DNA of 64,000 nt from Candidatus Izemoplasmatales bacterium (GTDB lineage: Bacteria; Bacillota_I; Bacilli_A; Izemoplasmatales; Hujiaoplasmataceae). The notes under the pieces are model-generated. The model was not told where the DNA came from. It did not search any database and worked only from the letters and a program-made list of their open reading frames with translations. Position 1 is the first letter of the stretch; each line of letters opens with the position of its first letter. Both the position numbers and the translations under genes were made by a program. The stretch spans positions 1-64,000 of the forward strand of contig JAQVVR010000001.1 of the NCBI GenBank assembly GCA_028698875.1, in the 5' to 3' direction. Positions 24,178-31,982 of the stretch are shown one piece after another.

Positions 24178-26298
24178 TTATTTGATAAAAATACGCAAAC
24201 CATCAGAAGCATAGTCTAAAATATAATTTTGATGTGGCAAAATAGTGCCATCAATAATAGCTTTTGCAATCGTTGTTTCTACATGGTGCTGAATAAATCG
24301 TTTAATCGGACGAGCACCATAATCAGGATCGAAAGCATTTTCGATTATCTGTTTTTTAACTCGATCAGTAAAATCGACATTAATGTTTTGGTTTTGTAAT
24401 CGTGAGCTTAACTCTAAAAGCATTTTGTCAACAATTTTTACCTGAGTTTCATAAGATAACGGATTGAAGATAATAATCTCATCAATCCGATTTATGAACT
24501 CGGGTTTAAATGATTTCTTAATTAGATCCATGACGATCTTATTTCCGGTTTCTGGATCTTTTATTAGGTATTCACTGCCCAGATTAGATGTCATAATAAT
24601 GATGGTGTTTTTAAAATCTACCGTCCGGCCTTGGTTATCTGTTAATCGTCCATCATCGAGAATTTGAAGCAAGATATTGAAGACCTCAGGATGAGCTTTT
24701 TCGATTTCATCAAACAAAATAATTGAGTATGGCTTTCGTCGGATGGCTTCAGTTAATTGACCACCCTCGTCATAACCTACATACCCTGGGGGAGCACCGA
24801 TTAGACGGGAAACAGAAAACGATTCCATATATTCACTCATATCAATTCTGACGATATGCGTTTCACTAGCAAATAATTGCTCCGCTAATGACTTGGCAAC
24901 TTCGGTTTTTCCGACTCCTGTGGGTCCTAAAAACATGAAAGAACCAATCGGACGATGTTCATCTTTGATGCCAGCTCGTTGACGAATGATAGCATCGGCA
25001 ATTAAGTTAATGGCATAATCTTGGCCAATTACCCGTTTTTTTAAAGCGTCAGCTAAATTCAAAAGTTTCTCTTTGTCCCCCTGCATTAATTTAGCAACAG
25101 GAATTTGAGTCCATTTACCAACGATATTGGCGATATCTTCCTCGCTGACGACTTCGCTGATTAACTTGTGATTAGAAGAATCAGACAACGTTTGAATCTC
25201 TTTTTCTAAAGTTGGAATTTTGCTGTATTGAAGTTCAGCAGCTTGCGAATAGTCGCCTTTATTCATGGCGTTTTGCATGTCCGTTCGTAATCGTTCTAAA
25301 TCGGACTTCAAAGCTTTAACATGTTCTAGTTGTTTTTTTTCTTGTTCCCATTGAGTTTTAAGTGCTTTTTCCTGATCCTGTAAAACAATTAGTTCTTGCT
25401 TGATTTTGCTTAAACGGTCTTTGCTTAAGGCGTCCGTTTCTTTGGCAAGGGCTCGTTTCTCAATTTCATGCTGCATGATTTTACGCATGATTTCATCTAG
25501 TTCAGATGGCATAGAATCAATTTCAACACGAATCGATGCACAGGCTTCATCAATGAGATCAATTGCCTTATCAGGCAGAAAACGATCAGTGATATAACGG
25601 TTTGAAAGAGTGGCTGCGGCAATAATGGCATTATCACTTATGTGAACACCATGATGTGCCTCAAAACGATCTTTAAGACCACGAATGATTGATATCGTAT
25701 CTTCAACACTGGGCTCATCAATCATGACCTTTTGAAACCTTCGTTCCAAAGCATTATCCTTTTCGATGTATTTACGATATTCGTTAAGGGTCGTTGCGCC
25801 AATACAGTGGAGTTCACCGCGGGCAAGCATTGGCTTAAGCATATTGGATGCATCCATAGCCCCATCAGTACGGCCAGCGCCAACAATCATATGAATTTCG
25901 TCAATGAAAAGCAGAATTCCACCGTCAGACGCTTTAATTTTAGTTAAAACCGCTTTTAACCGTTCTTCAAATTCACCGCGATACTTGGCTCCGGCAAGCA
26001 AACTTGCCAAGTCGAGTTCGTATAATATTTTATTTTGTAAACCTAACGGAACATCTTTGTCCACAATTCGTCTGGCTAATCCTTCAATAATGGCTGTTTT
26101 TCCGACACCAGGTTCACCAATTAAAACGGGATTGTTTTTTGTTTTCCGACTAAGAATTTTGATGATTCGTCTAATTTCGTCATCGCGACCAATGACGGGG
26201 TCAATTTTGCCACTTTGAACTTCGGTAATTATATTACGTCCAAATTTATTTAACACCTCAGGGTCATCGCGATAATTTTCCATTTCTTGTCCATTCAT
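24178..26298 (-). CDS. clpB: ClpB disaggregase lacking the N-terminal domain
   Basis: A 706-residue HSP100 ATPase. Walker A of the first AAA+ domain (GEPGVGKT) is at 61-68 and Walker B at 129-134; a coiled-coil M domain spans about 270-395; the second AAA+ domain has GPTGVGKT at 458-465 and ILFDEIE near 526. The M domain and lack of a ClpP loop make it ClpB rather than ClpC/A. Usual ClpB is about 860 residues; the first 140-150 (Clp_N) are absent, and the promoter with CIRCE lies right upstream, so this is native and not a sequence break. With DnaK it rescues aggregated proteins. Confidence 0.93.
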
Positions 26299-26336: not shown

Positions 26337-26365
26337 ATTATACGCTTAATTGTTAGCACTGTCAA
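26337..26365 (-). promoter_or_regulatory. Consensus promoter of clpB
   Basis: Minus strand: TTGACA (26360-26365), 17 bases, TATAAT (26337-26342). The -35 lies inside the CIRCE element. Confidence 0.9.
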
Positions 26366-26379
26366 TAGTAGAGTGCTAA
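26353..26379 (-). promoter_or_regulatory. CIRCE operator (HrcA site) of clpB
   Basis: Plus strand: TTAGCACTG, nine bases, GAGTGCTAA. The consensus is TTAGCACTC-N9-GAGTGCTAA, so only one base differs. It covers the -35 of clpB, so HrcA should repress until heat shock. Confidence 0.93.
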
Positions 26380-26524: not shown

Positions 26525-27931
26525 ATGAGCGATACTATAACGAAGGATTTAGTGATTATTGGATCGGGGCCTGGAGGCTATGTTGGAGCTATTTATGCTG
26601 CTCGCAAAGGCCTTAAAGTATCACTAATAGAAAAACGTTGGCTGGGTGGGACATGCCTAAATGCTGGGTGTATTCCAACCAAAGCCTTGATTAAAGCTGT
26701 GGAAGTATATGATGAAGCAAAGAACAGTTCCAAGTTTGGAATTGATATTGAAGGCGTGACTGCAAATTGGCCTAATATTCAAAACCAAAAAATCAAAGTA
26801 ACTGATTCTCTTCGGCAAGGGATCGATATGTTGTTAGCTAAAAACGGAGTTGACTTGATTAGAGGAGAAGGATCATTTGCAAAAAATGGTACCATCCTAG
26901 TATCATCCGTTGAAGGCAACAAAACCCTCATTAGCAAACACATTATTATAGCTACCGGAGCTAAAACAAAACATTTACGCATTCCCGGAATTGATTTGCC
27001 GGTGGTGATTGATTCCGAACAGATATTATCATTAAAGTCAATGCCTACATCACTTACTATTATTGGTGGTGGAGTTATTGGTATGGAGTTTGCTTTTATT
27101 TTTGGACGGTTAGGAGTAAAAGTAACGGTGATCGAGTTTTTACCGCAAATTCTCCCCATGGTTGATCTTGATATCGTTCAAAGATTAACTCGCTATGCTA
27201 AAATGGCAAATATCACCGTTATTACTAATGCAGCCGTCCTTTCCATAATGCAAAATGATAATGGCATGGCTATTGTAAAGTATCGGCAAAACGATGCAGA
27301 AAAGTCAGTAGAATCAGAAGTGGTTTTAGAGGCCGTTGGCCGAATTCCTGAACTAAATAATCTTGGGTTAGAGAATATAAATATTACTCTTGCTAAAAAC
27401 GGCGGCATTCAAGTTGATTCGCAAATGCGGACGAATGTTGAAAACATATATGCGATTGGTGATTGTACAAATTTAGTACAATTGGCACATGTTGCAAGTC
27501 ACCAGGCATTTGTTGCTGTCGATAATATTCTTGGCATTCCAACAAAAATGGATTATAATTTTATTCCATCGGTTATTTTTACAAGCCCAGAAATTGCGAC
27601 GGTAGGCAAATCGGAGAAAAATCTGCAAGACGCTGGCATTTCATATCAAGTTTCCAAGATTCCATATGGATCAAATGGAAAAGCATTAATTTTAAACCAG
27701 CCAATCGGTTTTGTTAAACTTTTACGAGAAACTGAGTCTAAAAAACTAGTTGGCGCTTCAGCGTTTGGTGTTGAAGCCAACGCCTTAATTGCAACCTTGA
27801 CGGTGGCTTTGAATAATAACCTTTCCGTTTCTGATATTAAAAAAACTATCTTTGCTCATCCAACATTATCAGAGATAATTCATGATTCTGCGTTAGCACT
27901 TGATAATGAGGCAATTCATTTTTTTGAGTAA
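26525..27931 (+). CDS. lpdA: Dihydrolipoyl dehydrogenase
   Basis: A 468-residue FAD/NAD disulfide oxidoreductase. IGSGPGGYVGAIYAARKG is the FAD loop, GGTCLNAGCIPTK the redox-active Cys pair, IGGGVIGMEFAFIF the NAD loop, IYAIGDC the second FAD contact, and FAHPTLSEIIHD near the C-terminus carries the catalytic His. AAAAGGTGAC precedes ATG 26525; the longer start at 26489 lies in the leader hairpin. It re-oxidises lipoyl groups of 2-oxoacid dehydrogenases or the glycine system, but none of these partners is in the window. Confidence 0.93.
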   Translation: MSDTITKDLVIIGSGPGGYVGAIYAARKGLKVSLIEKRWLGGTCLNAGCIPTKALIKAVEVYDEAKNSSKFGIDIEGVTANWPNIQNQKIKVTDSLRQGIDMLLAKNGVDLIRGEGSFAKNGTILVSSVEGNKTLISKHIIIATGAKTKHLRIPGIDLPVVIDSEQILSLKSMPTSLTIIGGGVIGMEFAFIFGRLGVKVTVIEFLPQILPMVDLDIVQRLTRYAKMANITVITNAAVLSIMQNDNGMAIVKYRQNDAEKSVESEVVLEAVGRIPELNNLGLENINITLAKNGGIQVDSQMRTNVENIYAIGDCTNLVQLAHVASHQAFVAVDNILGIPTKMDYNFIPSVIFTSPEIATVGKSEKNLQDAGISYQVSKIPYGSNGKALILNQPIGFVKLLRETESKKLVGASAFGVEANALIATLTVALNNNLSVSDIKKTIFAHPTLSEIIHDSALALDNEAIHFFE

Positions 27932-27972: not shown

Positions 27973-28725
27973 ATGACTAAGCAAATAAATCCAGAAATAT
28001 TTAATGATATGATTAACCACTCAGAAAACATTGTTTTTTTTGGTGGTGCCGGAGTTTCAACCGAATCGGGAATTCCAGATTTTCGCAGTCAAGATGGCAT
28101 CTATAATTCGTCACATTCATATCCACCCGAAATGATATTGTCGCATTCCTTTTTTGTGTCAAGGACTGATGAATTTTATCGCTTTTATAAAGAAAAAATG
28201 ATATATCTTAATTCTTTGCCGAATGCTTGCCACCGGCTTTTGTCAATATGGGAAGCAACTGGAAAACTAAAAGGAATTATTACTCAAAATATTGACAATC
28301 TACATCAAATGGCAGGATCATTTAATGTTATTGAATTACATGGGTCTATATACCGTAATCATTGTCAGAAATGTGGGAAGTTTTATGATGTTGCCGCAGT
28401 ATTGTATACAACAGGCATTCCAAAATGCGATTGTGGTGGCATAATTAAACCAGATGTAGTGCTATATGAAGAAACATTGGACAATGATAAAATCAAATCC
28501 GCAATCAAATTGATTGAGCAAGCAGATATCCTTATAATTGGTGGCACTTCATTAAGCGTTTACCCTGCTGCTCAATTGGTTAATTATTATCGTGGTGATA
28601 AAATGATTTTAGTTAATAAAAACAAAAGTTCTTTTGATCGAAATGCTGATTTCGTTTTTTATGGTCCCATTGCCGATTTTTTTGCAAAAACCGCACAAAT
28701 AGGCCAAATTAATCATGATTCATAA
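27973..28725 (+). CDS. cobB: SIR2-family NAD-dependent protein deacylase
   Basis: A 250-residue sirtuin. FFGGAGVSTESGIPDFRS is the NAD-binding start, TQNIDNLH the second NAD motif, His123 in ELHGS is the catalytic base, Cys131, 134, 152 and 154 bind zinc (the last pair as CxC), and GGTSLSVYPA ends the Rossmann part. It removes acetyl or other acyl groups from lysines using NAD+. It lies 41 bases behind lpdA without a terminator between, so the two may be co-transcribed. Acyl-CoA made by the ptb-buk pathway could be a source of such modifications; that is inference. Confidence 0.92.
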   Translation: MTKQINPEIFNDMINHSENIVFFGGAGVSTESGIPDFRSQDGIYNSSHSYPPEMILSHSFFVSRTDEFYRFYKEKMIYLNSLPNACHRLLSIWEATGKLKGIITQNIDNLHQMAGSFNVIELHGSIYRNHCQKCGKFYDVAAVLYTTGIPKCDCGGIIKPDVVLYEETLDNDKIKSAIKLIEQADILIIGGTSLSVYPAAQLVNYYRGDKMILVNKNKSSFDRNADFVFYGPIADFFAKTAQIGQINHDS

Positions 28726-28759: not shown

Positions 28760-28788
28760 TTGACAAACATTTAATTATCGCATATAAT
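28760..28788 (+). promoter_or_regulatory. Consensus promoter of the desulfurase unit
   Basis: TTGACA at 28760-28765, exactly 17 bases, TATAAT at 28783-28788. Confidence 0.92.
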
Positions 28789-28821
28789 TACATTCAACAA
28801 ATTGATTGAGGAGGCACTACC

Positions 28822-29928
28822 ATGATCTATCTTGATTATTCGGCTACTACGCCTGTTAATCGACGCGTTTTGGATTATTTTTGTACGGTTAGCGAACAAT
28901 GCTATGGCAATGCTAACTCGACTCATCAAATGGGGAAAATTGCCAAAGAAAAAATTGATTTGGCATCAAAAGCAATTCTTAAGATGTTTGACACCGATAA
29001 TCATGAAGTAATCTATACAAGCGGTGCAAGCGAAGCCAATAATCTTGCAATTAAAGGTGTAGCATTTCGAAAACAGCATCTGGGCAAGCACATCATCACC
29101 AGTGTTTTTGAACATCCTTCTGTCACTACCTGTATGGGATATTTGCAGAATCAAGGTTATGATATTGAATTTGCACCGACAAACAATATGGGTGTTGTTG
29201 ATGTAGAAGCATTAAGAAATATGATAAGATCTGATACGATTTTGGTTTCGATTGCGGGAGTAAATAGCGAGATTGGAATAATACAACCCATCAATGAAAT
29301 CGGATTAATGATGAAAATGTTTCCCTTTGCTACCTTTCATTCGGATTTAACCCAAGCAGTAGGAAAAATTCCGATAACTATTACGAATATAGATTTAGTG
29401 ACTTTTTCTGCCCATAAATTTTATGGTTTAAAAGGCATCGGAGCTTTACTAAGAAAAACCACAACCATTTTGGAACCACAAATACATGGAGGCAAATCAA
29501 CAACGGAAAGCCGAAGCGGAACTCCAGCGGTTTCGCTTATTTGCTCTATGGAAAAAGCTTTGGATTTAGCTGTTTGTCGACTAGATAGTCAATACCGAAT
29601 TGTTTTTGGTTTGAAGAAACTTTTATTAGCAAAATTAGCACTTATTCCCAATGTGGTTGTCAACAGCAATGATGCTTGCTTGCCTCATATTGTTAATTTG
29701 AGTGTATTATCAAAAGATGCACATACAATGGTGGACATTCTTGATCGCCAGGGAATCATGGTTTCAATGCAAACTGCTTGTTACACTGGTTCCCAACGAT
29801 CAGAATCAGTATATCGTTTAACAAACAATGAACAAAGGGCGCAAACCAGTTTTCGGATTAGTATTTCCTATTTAACAACACTGTTAGAAATTGATGCCTT
29901 AATTGATGTTATCGAAATGGCGGCATAA
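28822..29928 (+). CDS. nifS: NifS/IscS-like cysteine desulfurase
   Basis: A 368-residue PLP enzyme taking sulfur from cysteine. YLDYSATTP at 3-11, FEHPSV with His98, and SAHKFYG with PLP-Lys199 are standard; the mobile active Cys is Cys320 in MQTACYTGS, a less common loop than the SGSAC type. GAGGAGG precedes ATG 28822. It leads an operon with a small thioredoxin-like protein and a CcdA-like membrane protein, so sulfur transfer may be joined to thiol redox control. An Fe-S scaffold (IscU/SufU) is not seen here. Confidence 0.9.
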   Translation: MIYLDYSATTPVNRRVLDYFCTVSEQCYGNANSTHQMGKIAKEKIDLASKAILKMFDTDNHEVIYTSGASEANNLAIKGVAFRKQHLGKHIITSVFEHPSVTTCMGYLQNQGYDIEFAPTNNMGVVDVEALRNMIRSDTILVSIAGVNSEIGIIQPINEIGLMMKMFPFATFHSDLTQAVGKIPITITNIDLVTFSAHKFYGLKGIGALLRKTTTILEPQIHGGKSTTESRSGTPAVSLICSMEKALDLAVCRLDSQYRIVFGLKKLLLAKLALIPNVVVNSNDACLPHIVNLSVLSKDAHTMVDILDRQGIMVSMQTACYTGSQRSESVYRLTNNEQRAQTSFRISISYLTTLLEIDALIDVIEMAA

Positions 29929-29929
29929 C

Positions 29930-30193
29930 ATGAAAATCATTCGTTTTTCCGCCCTTTGGTGTATGAGTTGTATTCTCATGAAGTCTCGTTGGCTTCAAGT
30001 GTTGAAAACCCACCCAAATCTTGAAGTTATCGATTATGATTTTGATGAGCATTCAAAGGAAGTAATTAAATATCAAGTTGGGAATATATTACCAGTTGTA
30101 ATTTTTGTACAAAATGATATTGAAGTTACGCGAATAATTGGCGAGAAGAGTCTCAAGGAATTAAATAAAATTCTTGAGACGATGGGTTTATGA
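29930..30193 (+). CDS. Small thioredoxin-like protein
   Basis: An 87-residue protein starting at ATG 29930, one base after the desulfurase stop. FSALWCMSC gives Cys11 and Cys14, a WCxxC redox site, and ILPVVIFVQND contains the cis-Pro strand of the thioredoxin fold. No signal peptide, so it is cytosolic. Its TGA overlaps the next ATG (ATGA). It is a good candidate electron donor for the CcdA-like membrane protein that follows. Confidence 0.82.
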   Translation: MKIIRFSALWCMSCILMKSRWLQVLKTHPNLEVIDYDFDEHSKEVIKYQVGNILPVVIFVQNDIEVTRIIGEKSLKELNKILETMGL

Positions 30194-31419
30194 GTATGGC
30201 CAAAAAAATCTATGTCGTTCTTGTTTTGTTATTTTTTTCTTTGCCTTTATTAGTCTTTGATGTTCATGCCAACACACCTATTGTGATTCATTTTTTCTAT
30301 CTAGAATCCTGTCCCAATTGTCACATTGAAGAATTATACCTAACTGAACTACAATCACAAAACAACAATGTTACTATAGTAAGGTATGAGGTATCTGATC
30401 CTCAAAATCAAATTTTATATGATCAAGTATATACTTGTTTCAATGACGCAGAGACGATTGATTATAATCTTCGATATGGAACACCCTTTACGGTTATTGG
30501 TGGTTACGCTTTTTCGGGATTTAATGATCAGAGTAAGAACAATATTGAAAAAATGATATCGCATTATACAACTCAACAGTATGTTGACATTGTGTCCAAA
30601 ATCATAAATGAGGAAACGATTGAAGACAGTGATTTTGATTCGATTGACTTACAAACCGGAGATATTGTCACATTGCCGATTATTGGCGATATATCAATCG
30701 AAAGTGTTTCTTTGGGACTGGCTGCCATTTTATTAGGCTTTGTTGATGGCTTTAACCCCTGCGCCATGTGGATATTGGTATTTTTAATAACTATGCTTGC
30801 TAACCAACGAGATCGAAAACGCATGTGGATTTTAGGGTCGACATTTTTATTTACTTCAGCACTAGTATATTTTTTGGCCATGACGGTTTGGATGCAAGTA
30901 GCTATTACGTTTACAGAAATTGTTTGGATTCGAATTGCAATTGGGGTTGTTGCTTTCATCTTTGGGGTATATAATTTAAGTAAATTTGTTAAAACCGTTA
31001 AAACCCCAGAAATCGGTTGTGAAGTCGTTGACGAAAACAAACGCCGAAAGATTATCGACAAAATCAAAATCATAATTTCAGAGAAACATTTGGTTTCTGC
31101 TTTGATCGGAATCATCTTATTGGCAATATCTGTAAATTTAATTGAGCTTGCTTGTTCAGCTGGATTGCCATTATTATTTTCTCAAATTGTTGCCTTTAAT
31201 CATGTGGCACCAACCACTTCAATCATGCTTACCTTGTTATACGTTTTCTTTTTTATAATCGATGATTTAGTAATCTTTTCAATTGCCATGATAACATTAA
31301 AAGTAACAGGAATAACCAATAAATATACACGATTCTCGCATCTGGTTGGTGGTCTCATCATGATTATCATTGGTTTTTTACTGATTTTTTTTCCAAGCAT
31401 TATTATGTTAAATTTTTAA
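30190..31419 (+). CDS. CcdA/DsbD-like membrane thiol reductase with exported thioredoxin-like domain
   Basis: A 409-residue fusion. Residues 1-28 are a signal peptide; an exported thioredoxin-like domain follows with CPNC at 41-44. From about 170 there are six membrane helices: GFVDGFNPCAMW with Cys191 and ELACSAGLP with Cys322 are the paired intramembrane Cys of CcdA/DsbD-type electron carriers. It should move reducing power from cytosolic thioredoxin across the membrane to its own outer CxxC domain. The order is inverted relative to DsbD, whose thioredoxin domain is C-terminal. Confidence 0.8.
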   Translation: MSMAKKIYVVLVLLFFSLPLLVFDVHANTPIVIHFFYLESCPNCHIEELYLTELQSQNNNVTIVRYEVSDPQNQILYDQVYTCFNDAETIDYNLRYGTPFTVIGGYAFSGFNDQSKNNIEKMISHYTTQQYVDIVSKIINEETIEDSDFDSIDLQTGDIVTLPIIGDISIESVSLGLAAILLGFVDGFNPCAMWILVFLITMLANQRDRKRMWILGSTFLFTSALVYFLAMTVWMQVAITFTEIVWIRIAIGVVAFIFGVYNLSKFVKTVKTPEIGCEVVDENKRRKIIDKIKIIISEKHLVSALIGIILLAISVNLIELACSAGLPLLFSQIVAFNHVAPTTSIMLTLLYVFFFIIDDLVIFSIAMITLKVTGITNKYTRFSHLVGGLIMIIIGFLLIFFPSIIMLNF

Positions 31420-31443
31420 GGTCTTTCCAAAGACCTTTTTTTA
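31418..31443 (+). terminator. Terminator of the desulfurase unit
   Basis: AAGGTCTTT (31418-31426) and AAAGACCTT (31429-31437), then T residues. It overlaps the stop codon. Confidence 0.8.
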
Positions 31444-31464: not shown

Positions 31465-31491
31465 ATAGCACTCAACGCTTGACAGTGCTAA
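31465..31491 (+). promoter_or_regulatory. CIRCE operator 1 of hsp20
   Basis: ATAGCACTC, nine bases, CAGTGCTAA: two bases differ from consensus. It covers the -35. Confidence 0.88.
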
Positions 31492-31510: not shown

Positions 31511-31537
31511 TTAGCACTCGAGATAGCTGAGTGACAA
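31511..31537 (+). promoter_or_regulatory. CIRCE-like operator 2 of hsp20
   Basis: TTAGCACTC, nine bases, GAGTGACAA. The left arm is perfect and the right arm has two mismatches. It lies at the transcription start, five bases after the -10. Confidence 0.8.
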
Positions 31538-31559: not shown

Positions 31560-31982
31560 ATGAATAATTTAATTAGACGCAACAAAACGGATTTAGATTA
31601 CTTTGATGATATTTTTGCAGGTTTTTTACCGCAATCGTTTCATCAGGTTAATAACCTTTACATGAAAACGGATATCAAGGAATTAGACAAGGTCTATGAA
31701 CTGGAAATCGATGTACCTGGATTTGAAAAAGACGAAATAAAGATTAGTCTTGAAAATGGATATTTAACAGTTGAAGCAAAACATGAAACTACGACAGAAA
31801 ACAAAGAAGAAAGATATTTACATCGTGAACGACTCGTTGGTCAGGTGGCAAGAACATTTTATGTTGGCGAAGACATTAGCGAAGCCGATATCAAGGCCGG
31901 GTACAACAAAGGAATATTAACATTGTCCATTCCTAAACAGGGAACATTAGTAAAAGATAAAAAGTACATTTCTATTGAATAA
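31560..31982 (+). CDS. Small heat-shock protein (Hsp20/alpha-crystallin)
   Basis: A 140-residue ATP-independent holdase. The alpha-crystallin domain runs from about 38 to 130: ELEIDVPGFEKDEIKISLEN, LTVEAKHE, and the typical AGYNKGILTLSIPK near the end. AGGAGG precedes ATG 31560. Two CIRCE elements around its promoter point to HrcA control together with clpB. Monocistronic, with a terminator directly behind. Confidence 0.95.
   Translation: MNNLIRRNKTDLDYFDDIFAGFLPQSFHQVNNLYMKTDIKELDKVYELEIDVPGFEKDEIKISLENGYLTVEAKHETTTENKEERYLHRERLVGQVARTFYVGEDISEADIKAGYNKGILTLSIPKQGTLVKDKKYISIE

Follow-up and report, generated by a model that had tools for sequence, protein, structure and literature searches.

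A cysteine desulfurase, a short thioredoxin and a CcdA-like membrane protein share a conserved operon in a Candidatus Izemoplasmatales bacterium and its relatives

Relays built on membrane proteins of the CcdA type are known to move electrons outward, where they serve cytochrome c maturation and surface repair. In the SoxV/SoxW pair of sulfur oxidisers a CcdA-type protein and a thioredoxin are tied to the chemistry of sulfane sulfur. The same association is seen in the three-gene unit described here, which codes for a cysteine desulfurase (DES), a short thioredoxin (TRX) and a CcdA-like fusion protein (CCDA); SoxV/SoxW differ from this trio in reducing periplasmic SoxY and in having no cysteine desulfurase in the unit. 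The trio lies in a stretch of 64,000 nucleotides (hereafter the window; contig JAQVVR010000001.1, positions 1 to 64,000) of a Candidatus Izemoplasmatales bacterium, known from a 1.42-Mb metagenome-assembled genome (MAG) which is 88% complete.

In S. gordonii, according to the available part of the report (PMC7034828), CcdA reduces exported thioredoxin-like proteins. The pathway, CcdA1/2 - SdbB/Sgo_1177 - MsrAB, resembles CCDA in that a membrane CcdA reduces exported proteins of thioredoxin fold, with a cytosolic thioredoxin proposed as donor; it is unlike CCDA in being made up of separate proteins and in serving a methionine sulfoxide reductase, and no desulfurase is described in that part of the report. 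Thioredoxins accept the sulfane sulfur of sulfurtransferases, setting H2S free (PMC7995614, available part), and the thioredoxin system of B. subtilis reduces a desulfurase-linked persulfide (review PMC8300815, available part), acting, as might TRX, on the persulfide of a cysteine desulfurase. The B. subtilis case differs, as far as that part of the review goes, because it involves a general thioredoxin, the SufU persulfide and no membrane relay. No description of an operon of desulfurase, TRX and CcdA-like protein was found in the literature searched, largely open titles and abstract openings. A CcdA-like relay with a built-in desulfurase would be a variant on the known CcdA relays. The features of the unit are as follows.

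28760..28788, + strand: sigma-70-type promoter TTGACA-N17-TATAAT, 5' of DES (12/12 match)
28810..28814, + strand: GGAGG ribosome-binding site, 7 nt 5' of the DES start (read from the sequence)
28822..29928, + strand: DES, class V (IscS/NifS-type) cysteine desulfurase of 368 amino acids (PF00266), with conserved C320 (codon 29779-29781)
29930..30193, + strand: TRX, short thioredoxin of 87 amino acids with the motif WC11-M-S-C14 (PF00085, 36.3 bits)
30190..31419, + strand: CCDA, 409 amino acids, with leader, exported thioredoxin domain and CcdA-like membrane domain (AlphaFold2 model, pLDDT 87.8, pTM 0.74)
30310..30321, + strand: exported redox pair C41-P-N-C44 of CCDA (both cysteines in 96/96 aligned CCDA)
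30760..30762, + strand: C191, first membrane cysteine, FNPCA, transmembrane segment (TM) 1 (96/96)
31018..31020, + strand: C277, additional cysteine on the loop between TM3 and TM4, cytosolic (96/96)
31153..31155, + strand: C322, second membrane cysteine, ELACSAG, TM4 (96/96)
31418..31437, + strand: intrinsic terminator directly 3' of the CCDA stop codon (8-pair stem, T run; -8.5 kcal/mol, z -2.8)

A preliminary description of this DNA had placed the three genes in one operon, and the signals agree. The sole perfect promoter of the unit lies 5' of DES, and the terminator follows CCDA directly. The window has three perfect (12/12) promoters on its + strand and two on its - strand, where 200 shuffles gave 0.1 per strand on average. 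Inside the unit, + strand promoter-like sites reach 9/12 matches at best, and the number of such sites in the region, 24, is near the shuffle level (18.3, standard deviation 4.0), leaving no sign of separate promoters. A terminator-like hairpin is also found within DES (29514-29538). The overlaps reported earlier hold for TRX and CCDA (4 nt); DES and TRX are separated by 1 nt if translation starts from the ATG at 29930, and overlap only if the TTG at 29903 is the start. Spacing in homologous loci is short, the median being -4 nt between DES and TRX (50 bp or less in 81/82 pairs) and -8 nt between TRX and CCDA (50 bp or less in 109/109 pairs).

The trio is real, conserved beyond chance, and widespread in its bacterial class. 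Among 120 loci carrying a CCDA of the close type, DES and TRX stand beside it in 92, TRX without DES in 20, and neither in 8; since loci were picked by CCDA similarity (the best 80 of 171 GTDB stretches, and at most 30 loci per genome search), 92/120 is not an unbiased frequency. The 92 comprise 88 loci in which DES and TRX fall within three genes, and four added on reading masked open reading frames (ORFs). The order is DES-TRX-CCDA in 80 of the 88; two have one gene between DES and TRX, one has a split CCDA, and five read TRX-CCDA-DES. Of the 20 loci with TRX only, L115 and L140 begin at contig ends, and so do L082 and L145 among the eight lone CCDA. Two loci with a partial CCDA are outside the count (L059, which also has pieces of DES and TRX, and L063); five named loci duplicating fetched contigs were dropped, and L129 and L132 have an identical core.

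CCDA was found in 28 of the 34 genomes of the window's family, and all 28 have DES and TRX as well. In the six others a TRX of this kind is missing throughout, and DES is absent from five and present as a fragment in G017. DES and TRX are still paired in all four genomes in which CCDA is located elsewhere (G015, G019, G025 and G029), where they adjoin cysE and cysK. None of DES, this TRX and CCDA was found in four genomes of family f2. Over a wider range, CCDA was detected in 50 of 81 relatives (E<=1e-3) and 22 of 26 genera, mostly as a distant type outside the window's family. A phylum-wide draw of 392 genomes, of unspecified class composition, gave CCDA matches in 49 (E<=1e-20); each of the 49 is labelled as the same class or closer, and a few match through the exported domain alone.

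Two CCDA loci come from bins named as other phyla, L128 (Saccharibacteria) and L082 (Microgenomates). Neither has TRX or DES adjacent, a DES-type enzyme was not found in the two genomes (best 204 and 155 bits, respectively), and transfer or mis-binning may account for them. A pentapeptide-like repeat protein of 181-212 amino acids is encoded just 5' of TRX in three loci; in L088 and L127 its gene separates DES from TRX, and in L115 it stands at the contig start.

The identity of DES as a cysteine desulfurase, proposed earlier, is well founded. It matches PF00266 at 197.5 bits (cut-off 21.5), as expected for the class V aminotransferase fold, and K199 and C320, which by analogy with IscS we take to be the lysine that binds pyridoxal phosphate and the catalytic cysteine, are kept in 70/70 aligned homologues. 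DES is below the cut-off of every named NCBIfam equivalog, the best being NifS TIGR03402 (281.9/530.75 bits), followed by IscS (270.3/643.2), DndA (262/480) and SufS (113.7/475.1). TRX was likewise correctly seen as a small WCxxC protein of cytosolic type: the motif is WCMSC, its two cysteines are present in 91/91 homologues, no leader peptide is apparent by eye, and the score against PF00085 exceeds the cut-off of 23.5 bits, with 33.5/96.8 bits against the thioredoxin equivalog TIGR01068. A second thioredoxin in the window's genome (C16:238015) is distinct from TRX (39 bits vs. 124 bits).

CCDA has a leader helix (residues 2-21) and then a thioredoxin fold (residues 28-130; VIA Z 11.1, root-mean-square deviation (rmsd) 1.6 over 85 residues vs. 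thioredoxin 1v98). In the membrane domain the TM1-2, TM3-4 and TM5-6 loops are basic, which puts the thioredoxin domain outside the cell and C277 in the cytosol. The membrane protein with an exported CPNC domain and an intramembrane cysteine pair of the preliminary description is thus recovered. C277, which by motif is found in 117/117 CCDA sequences of at least 370 amino acids (115 GC, two AC), is an unexpected extra beyond the two redox pairs, all five cysteines being kept in the 96 aligned sequences. No Pfam family matches CCDA at E<=0.1, and NCBIfam gives just a sub-threshold 13.8 bits to a glutaredoxin-like model; structure searches with the whole protein returned matches essentially to the thioredoxin domain. 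Short ORFs of about 180-250 amino acids match the exported thioredoxin part of CCDA alone (G335:C9:57416, G429:C11:63442, G325:C5:66301, G319:C34:12116, and others), and are possible stand-alone surface partners. Two CCDA matches have one in-frame stop each (G006:C194:38745-39926 and G019:C1:1688194-1689393).

As in CcdA/DsbD_TM (PF02683, 5VKV), the membrane domain of CCDA is of the six-helix type, with one conserved cysteine in each half, in TM1 (NPC) and TM4, and the alignment is collinear. A profile comparison with three CcdA proteins (hhalign) covers 196 columns and has both cysteines in register (probability 33%, E 4e-4). CCDA is unlike CcdA/DsbD_TM in featuring FNPCAMW and ELACSAG instead of the SPC and W(T/S)PCIG of CcdA, an N-terminal exported thioredoxin domain, and the extra cysteine of the cytosolic loop. 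PF02683 (cut-off 27.1 bits) is matched neither by CCDA nor by any protein of the window's own genome, and CCDA is therefore called CcdA-like here and left outside the CcdA family proper; distant homologues carrying the parallel trio described below score 21.8 and 20.5 bits, and one 24.8, or 27.9 with its neighbours. The model of the membrane domain (pLDDT 75.0) has CcdA 5vkv as the top probability in the Foldseek list (0.77), and the match is weak (E 0.55, template-modelling score 0.45/0.47); by VIA, 5vkv ranks 11, below unrelated transporters (Z 6.9, rmsd 4.9, 185/224). Given these values, we stop short of assigning the CcdA fold to the domain. The in-register alignment, the weak PF02683 matches of distant homologues and the weak fold match to 5vkv hint at kinship to CcdA.

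We propose that the three genes make up a thiol-reductant relay leading from the cytosol to the surface, with a sulfur-releasing enzyme built in and TRX serving both the DES persulfide and CCDA, and put the probability of this reading at roughly 0.5. A thioredoxin reductase would keep TRX reduced; thioredoxin-reductase-like genes are present, the best one in the window's own genome scoring 328 bits, under the cut-off of 343. TRX would hand electrons to the C191/C322 pair in the membrane domain of CCDA, from where they would reach exported C41/C44, which would reduce disulfides at the surface. TRX would also remove sulfane sulfur from the active-site cysteine of DES, releasing sulfide and resetting the enzyme, and C277 would likely be the docking or hand-over point. 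Given the persulfide-reducing thioredoxins already described, as far as the available parts of the two reports go (PMC7995614, PMC8300815), a shared thioredoxin is the simplest reading.

Gene content, operon signals, the conservation of trio and cysteines, and the charge-based topology are observed, and the relay anatomy (thioredoxin fold, paired cysteines, topology) fits the electron relay to the surface that the preliminary description had seen in TRX and CCDA. From these we infer the outward direction of flow, along with TRX as shared partner, the role of C277 and the surface substrate. The direction bears on a very improbable alternative, in which surface thiols are oxidised by a CPHC domain and electrons run inward, via CCDA and TRX, to the DES persulfide, making disulfides independently of oxygen and quinones. 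CPHC, present at the exported pair in 81/117 CCDA sequences, is the dipeptide motif of oxidising DsbA, and the conversion of Cys + 2e- to Ala + H2S would be a two-electron sink. Yet CPHC is also present in an archaeal thioredoxin, and this archaeal CPHC thioredoxin and glutaredoxins are among the closest PDB profile matches; CPNC, found solely in the window's CCDA, and the varied motifs of the parallel branch described below also speak against an oxidase, and known CcdA proteins run outward.

A parallel trio was found in distant families. There (f3, f4, f7 and f20) a distant CcdA-like fusion is followed by a protein of about 96 amino acids and by a different desulfurase. The arrangement is complete in 23/25 loci (21/25 by ORF count, L191 and L195 being added on re-reading); in the exceptions the contig ends after the small protein (L186), or the desulfurase is on another contig (L192). 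The desulfurase scores 451.1 bits against the NifS model, above the 281.9 of DES. The small protein has one cysteine, in a Pro-Cys kept in 22/22 sequences; NCBIfam gives no match to it, and Pfam none that is credible, one hit being at chance level. A thioredoxin it is not, as judged from its sequence: it has no CxxC, besides lacking credible family matches. The fusions lack the C277-type loop motif, their exported motifs are varied, and a TRX of the window's kind was not found in the two genomes of this branch that were searched (best 26 bits).

In each branch, then, one more cysteine is retained on the cytosolic side near a desulfurase, C277 in one and the Pro-Cys protein in the other, which lacks both the C277 loop motif and TRX; in both, a CcdA-like fusion is paired with a desulfurase, and in the distant one the small cysteine protein sits between them. 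An outward relay of sulfane sulfur, the guess of the preliminary description, could account for this: the persulfide on C320 of DES would be handed to TRX or C277, then to the membrane cysteines and the exported domain, ending in surface persulfidation or in sulfide outside. This route is improbable for the window's trio, and it is similarly doubtful that the class as a whole moves sulfane sulfur, instead of or besides electrons, through the extra cytosolic cysteine into a CcdA-like carrier. The conserved cysteine pairs are exactly what an electron relay requires, DES relatives adjoin thiI or ttcA-like genes, and so serve other acceptors, and the literature searched, mostly titles and abstract openings, yielded no report of a CcdA that transports persulfide. 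The presence of a thioredoxin next to a desulfurase, moreover, needs no export to explain it, given the reduction of desulfurase-linked persulfide by the B. subtilis thioredoxin system (review PMC8300815, available part).

The DES family was also followed away from CCDA. Of the 18 named genomes whose TRX-CCDA pair has no DES next to it, 17 have a DES-type gene elsewhere, beside thiI in 7, beside a ttcA-like PP-loop gene in 6, and beside neither in 4. Three of the partner genes were scanned, the remaining ones being judged by likeness: one ThiI is over the TIGR00342 cut-off (384.5 bits), a TtcA-like protein is under its own (215.6 bits), and one more ThiI was recognised by Pfam. In 13/18 genomes, then, the family adjoins thiI or a ttcA-like gene. 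CCDA is therefore not the sole destination of what DES makes, and the retention of DES in 17/18 unlinked genomes loses weight as separate evidence that the genes are functionally linked. The NifZ-ThiI and IscS desulfurases of tRNA thiolation belong to the same enzyme class; unlike in those systems, the window's DES is grouped with TRX and CCDA, with thiI on another contig (C7).

DES may on these grounds be a housekeeping sulfur donor, for tRNA thiolation or other thio-cofactors, co-expressed with a general surface-reducing pathway and handing nothing over to it. Besides the 13/18 genomes, this is favoured by locus L130, which reads TRX-CCDA-DES and then a 273-aa gene. We regard it as unlikely, though a serious contender, in view of the phylogeny and of the parallel trio. 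In a tree of 84 of 127 desulfurases, randomly thinned, with a single long SufS branch as the root, the TRX-type, thiI-linked and ttcA-linked enzymes all fall in one group (support 99); thiI-linked enzymes make a single clade, and trio-linked ones are found on both sides of deep forks, so that the DES-TRX-CCDA linkage looks old, with several losses. The linkage also recurs in other families, where both the desulfurase and the order of the genes differ. ThiI, moreover, is over the cut-off in 40/46 relatives, including G007 and G016, which have no DES; within the window's family thiI thus does not require DES, and DES as an obligatory ThiI partner was ruled out there.

Several points tell against the thiol-reductant relay with a shared thioredoxin. 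The unlinked DES genes next to thiI or ttcA-like genes are one. The parallel trio does without this TRX in the two genomes searched, so that desulfurase and CcdA-like protein can be linked with no dedicated thioredoxin, and sharing of a thioredoxin leaves unexplained both the existence of two CcdA-desulfurase pairings and the extra cytosolic cysteine. The support for a CcdA fold is weak, in Foldseek (E 0.55) as in VIA. Finally, the CCDA-less family genomes are incomplete MAGs; the genes being adjacent, they may drop out jointly, and one lost contig could explain their common absence.

Genes for a lipoamide dehydrogenase (LPD, 26525-27931) and a sirtuin (SIR, 27973-28725) are often located 5' of DES in the window's family; both were excluded from the unit, since in the window SIR is separated from DES by the promoter. 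GcvH was found in 18/18 genomes tested, and LPD is therefore probably the ordinary E3 of glycine cleavage; a pyruvate-dehydrogenase-type E2 is clear in 4/10 genomes tested, the window's own giving just a 29-bit partial match. In many relatives of the family, though not in the window, cysE- and cysK-type genes are found 3' of the trio (L034, L035, L037, L038, L048, L051, and others; the cysE-type identity was verified in L038), tying the cluster to cysteine synthesis in those genomes. Matches to what we take to be the CIRCE consensus, presumably HrcA operators, occur at 26353-26379, 31465-31491 and 31511-31537 (three vs. 0.01 in shuffles), at the promoters of a ClpC-type gene (24178-26298, - strand) and an Hsp20 gene (31560-31982).

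The operon link between desulfurase and CcdA-like protein is steady, involving two desulfurase types, three gene orders and several families of one class, and suggests that in these anaerobes, most of them uncultured, the release of sulfur is coupled to the thiol state of the surface. Should sulfane sulfur turn out to be a cargo, the relay would represent a type of membrane transport not seen before. If electrons alone move, a function would still be assigned to a membrane family that lacks annotation, and to the family of about 96 amino acids that has no Pfam or NCBIfam match.

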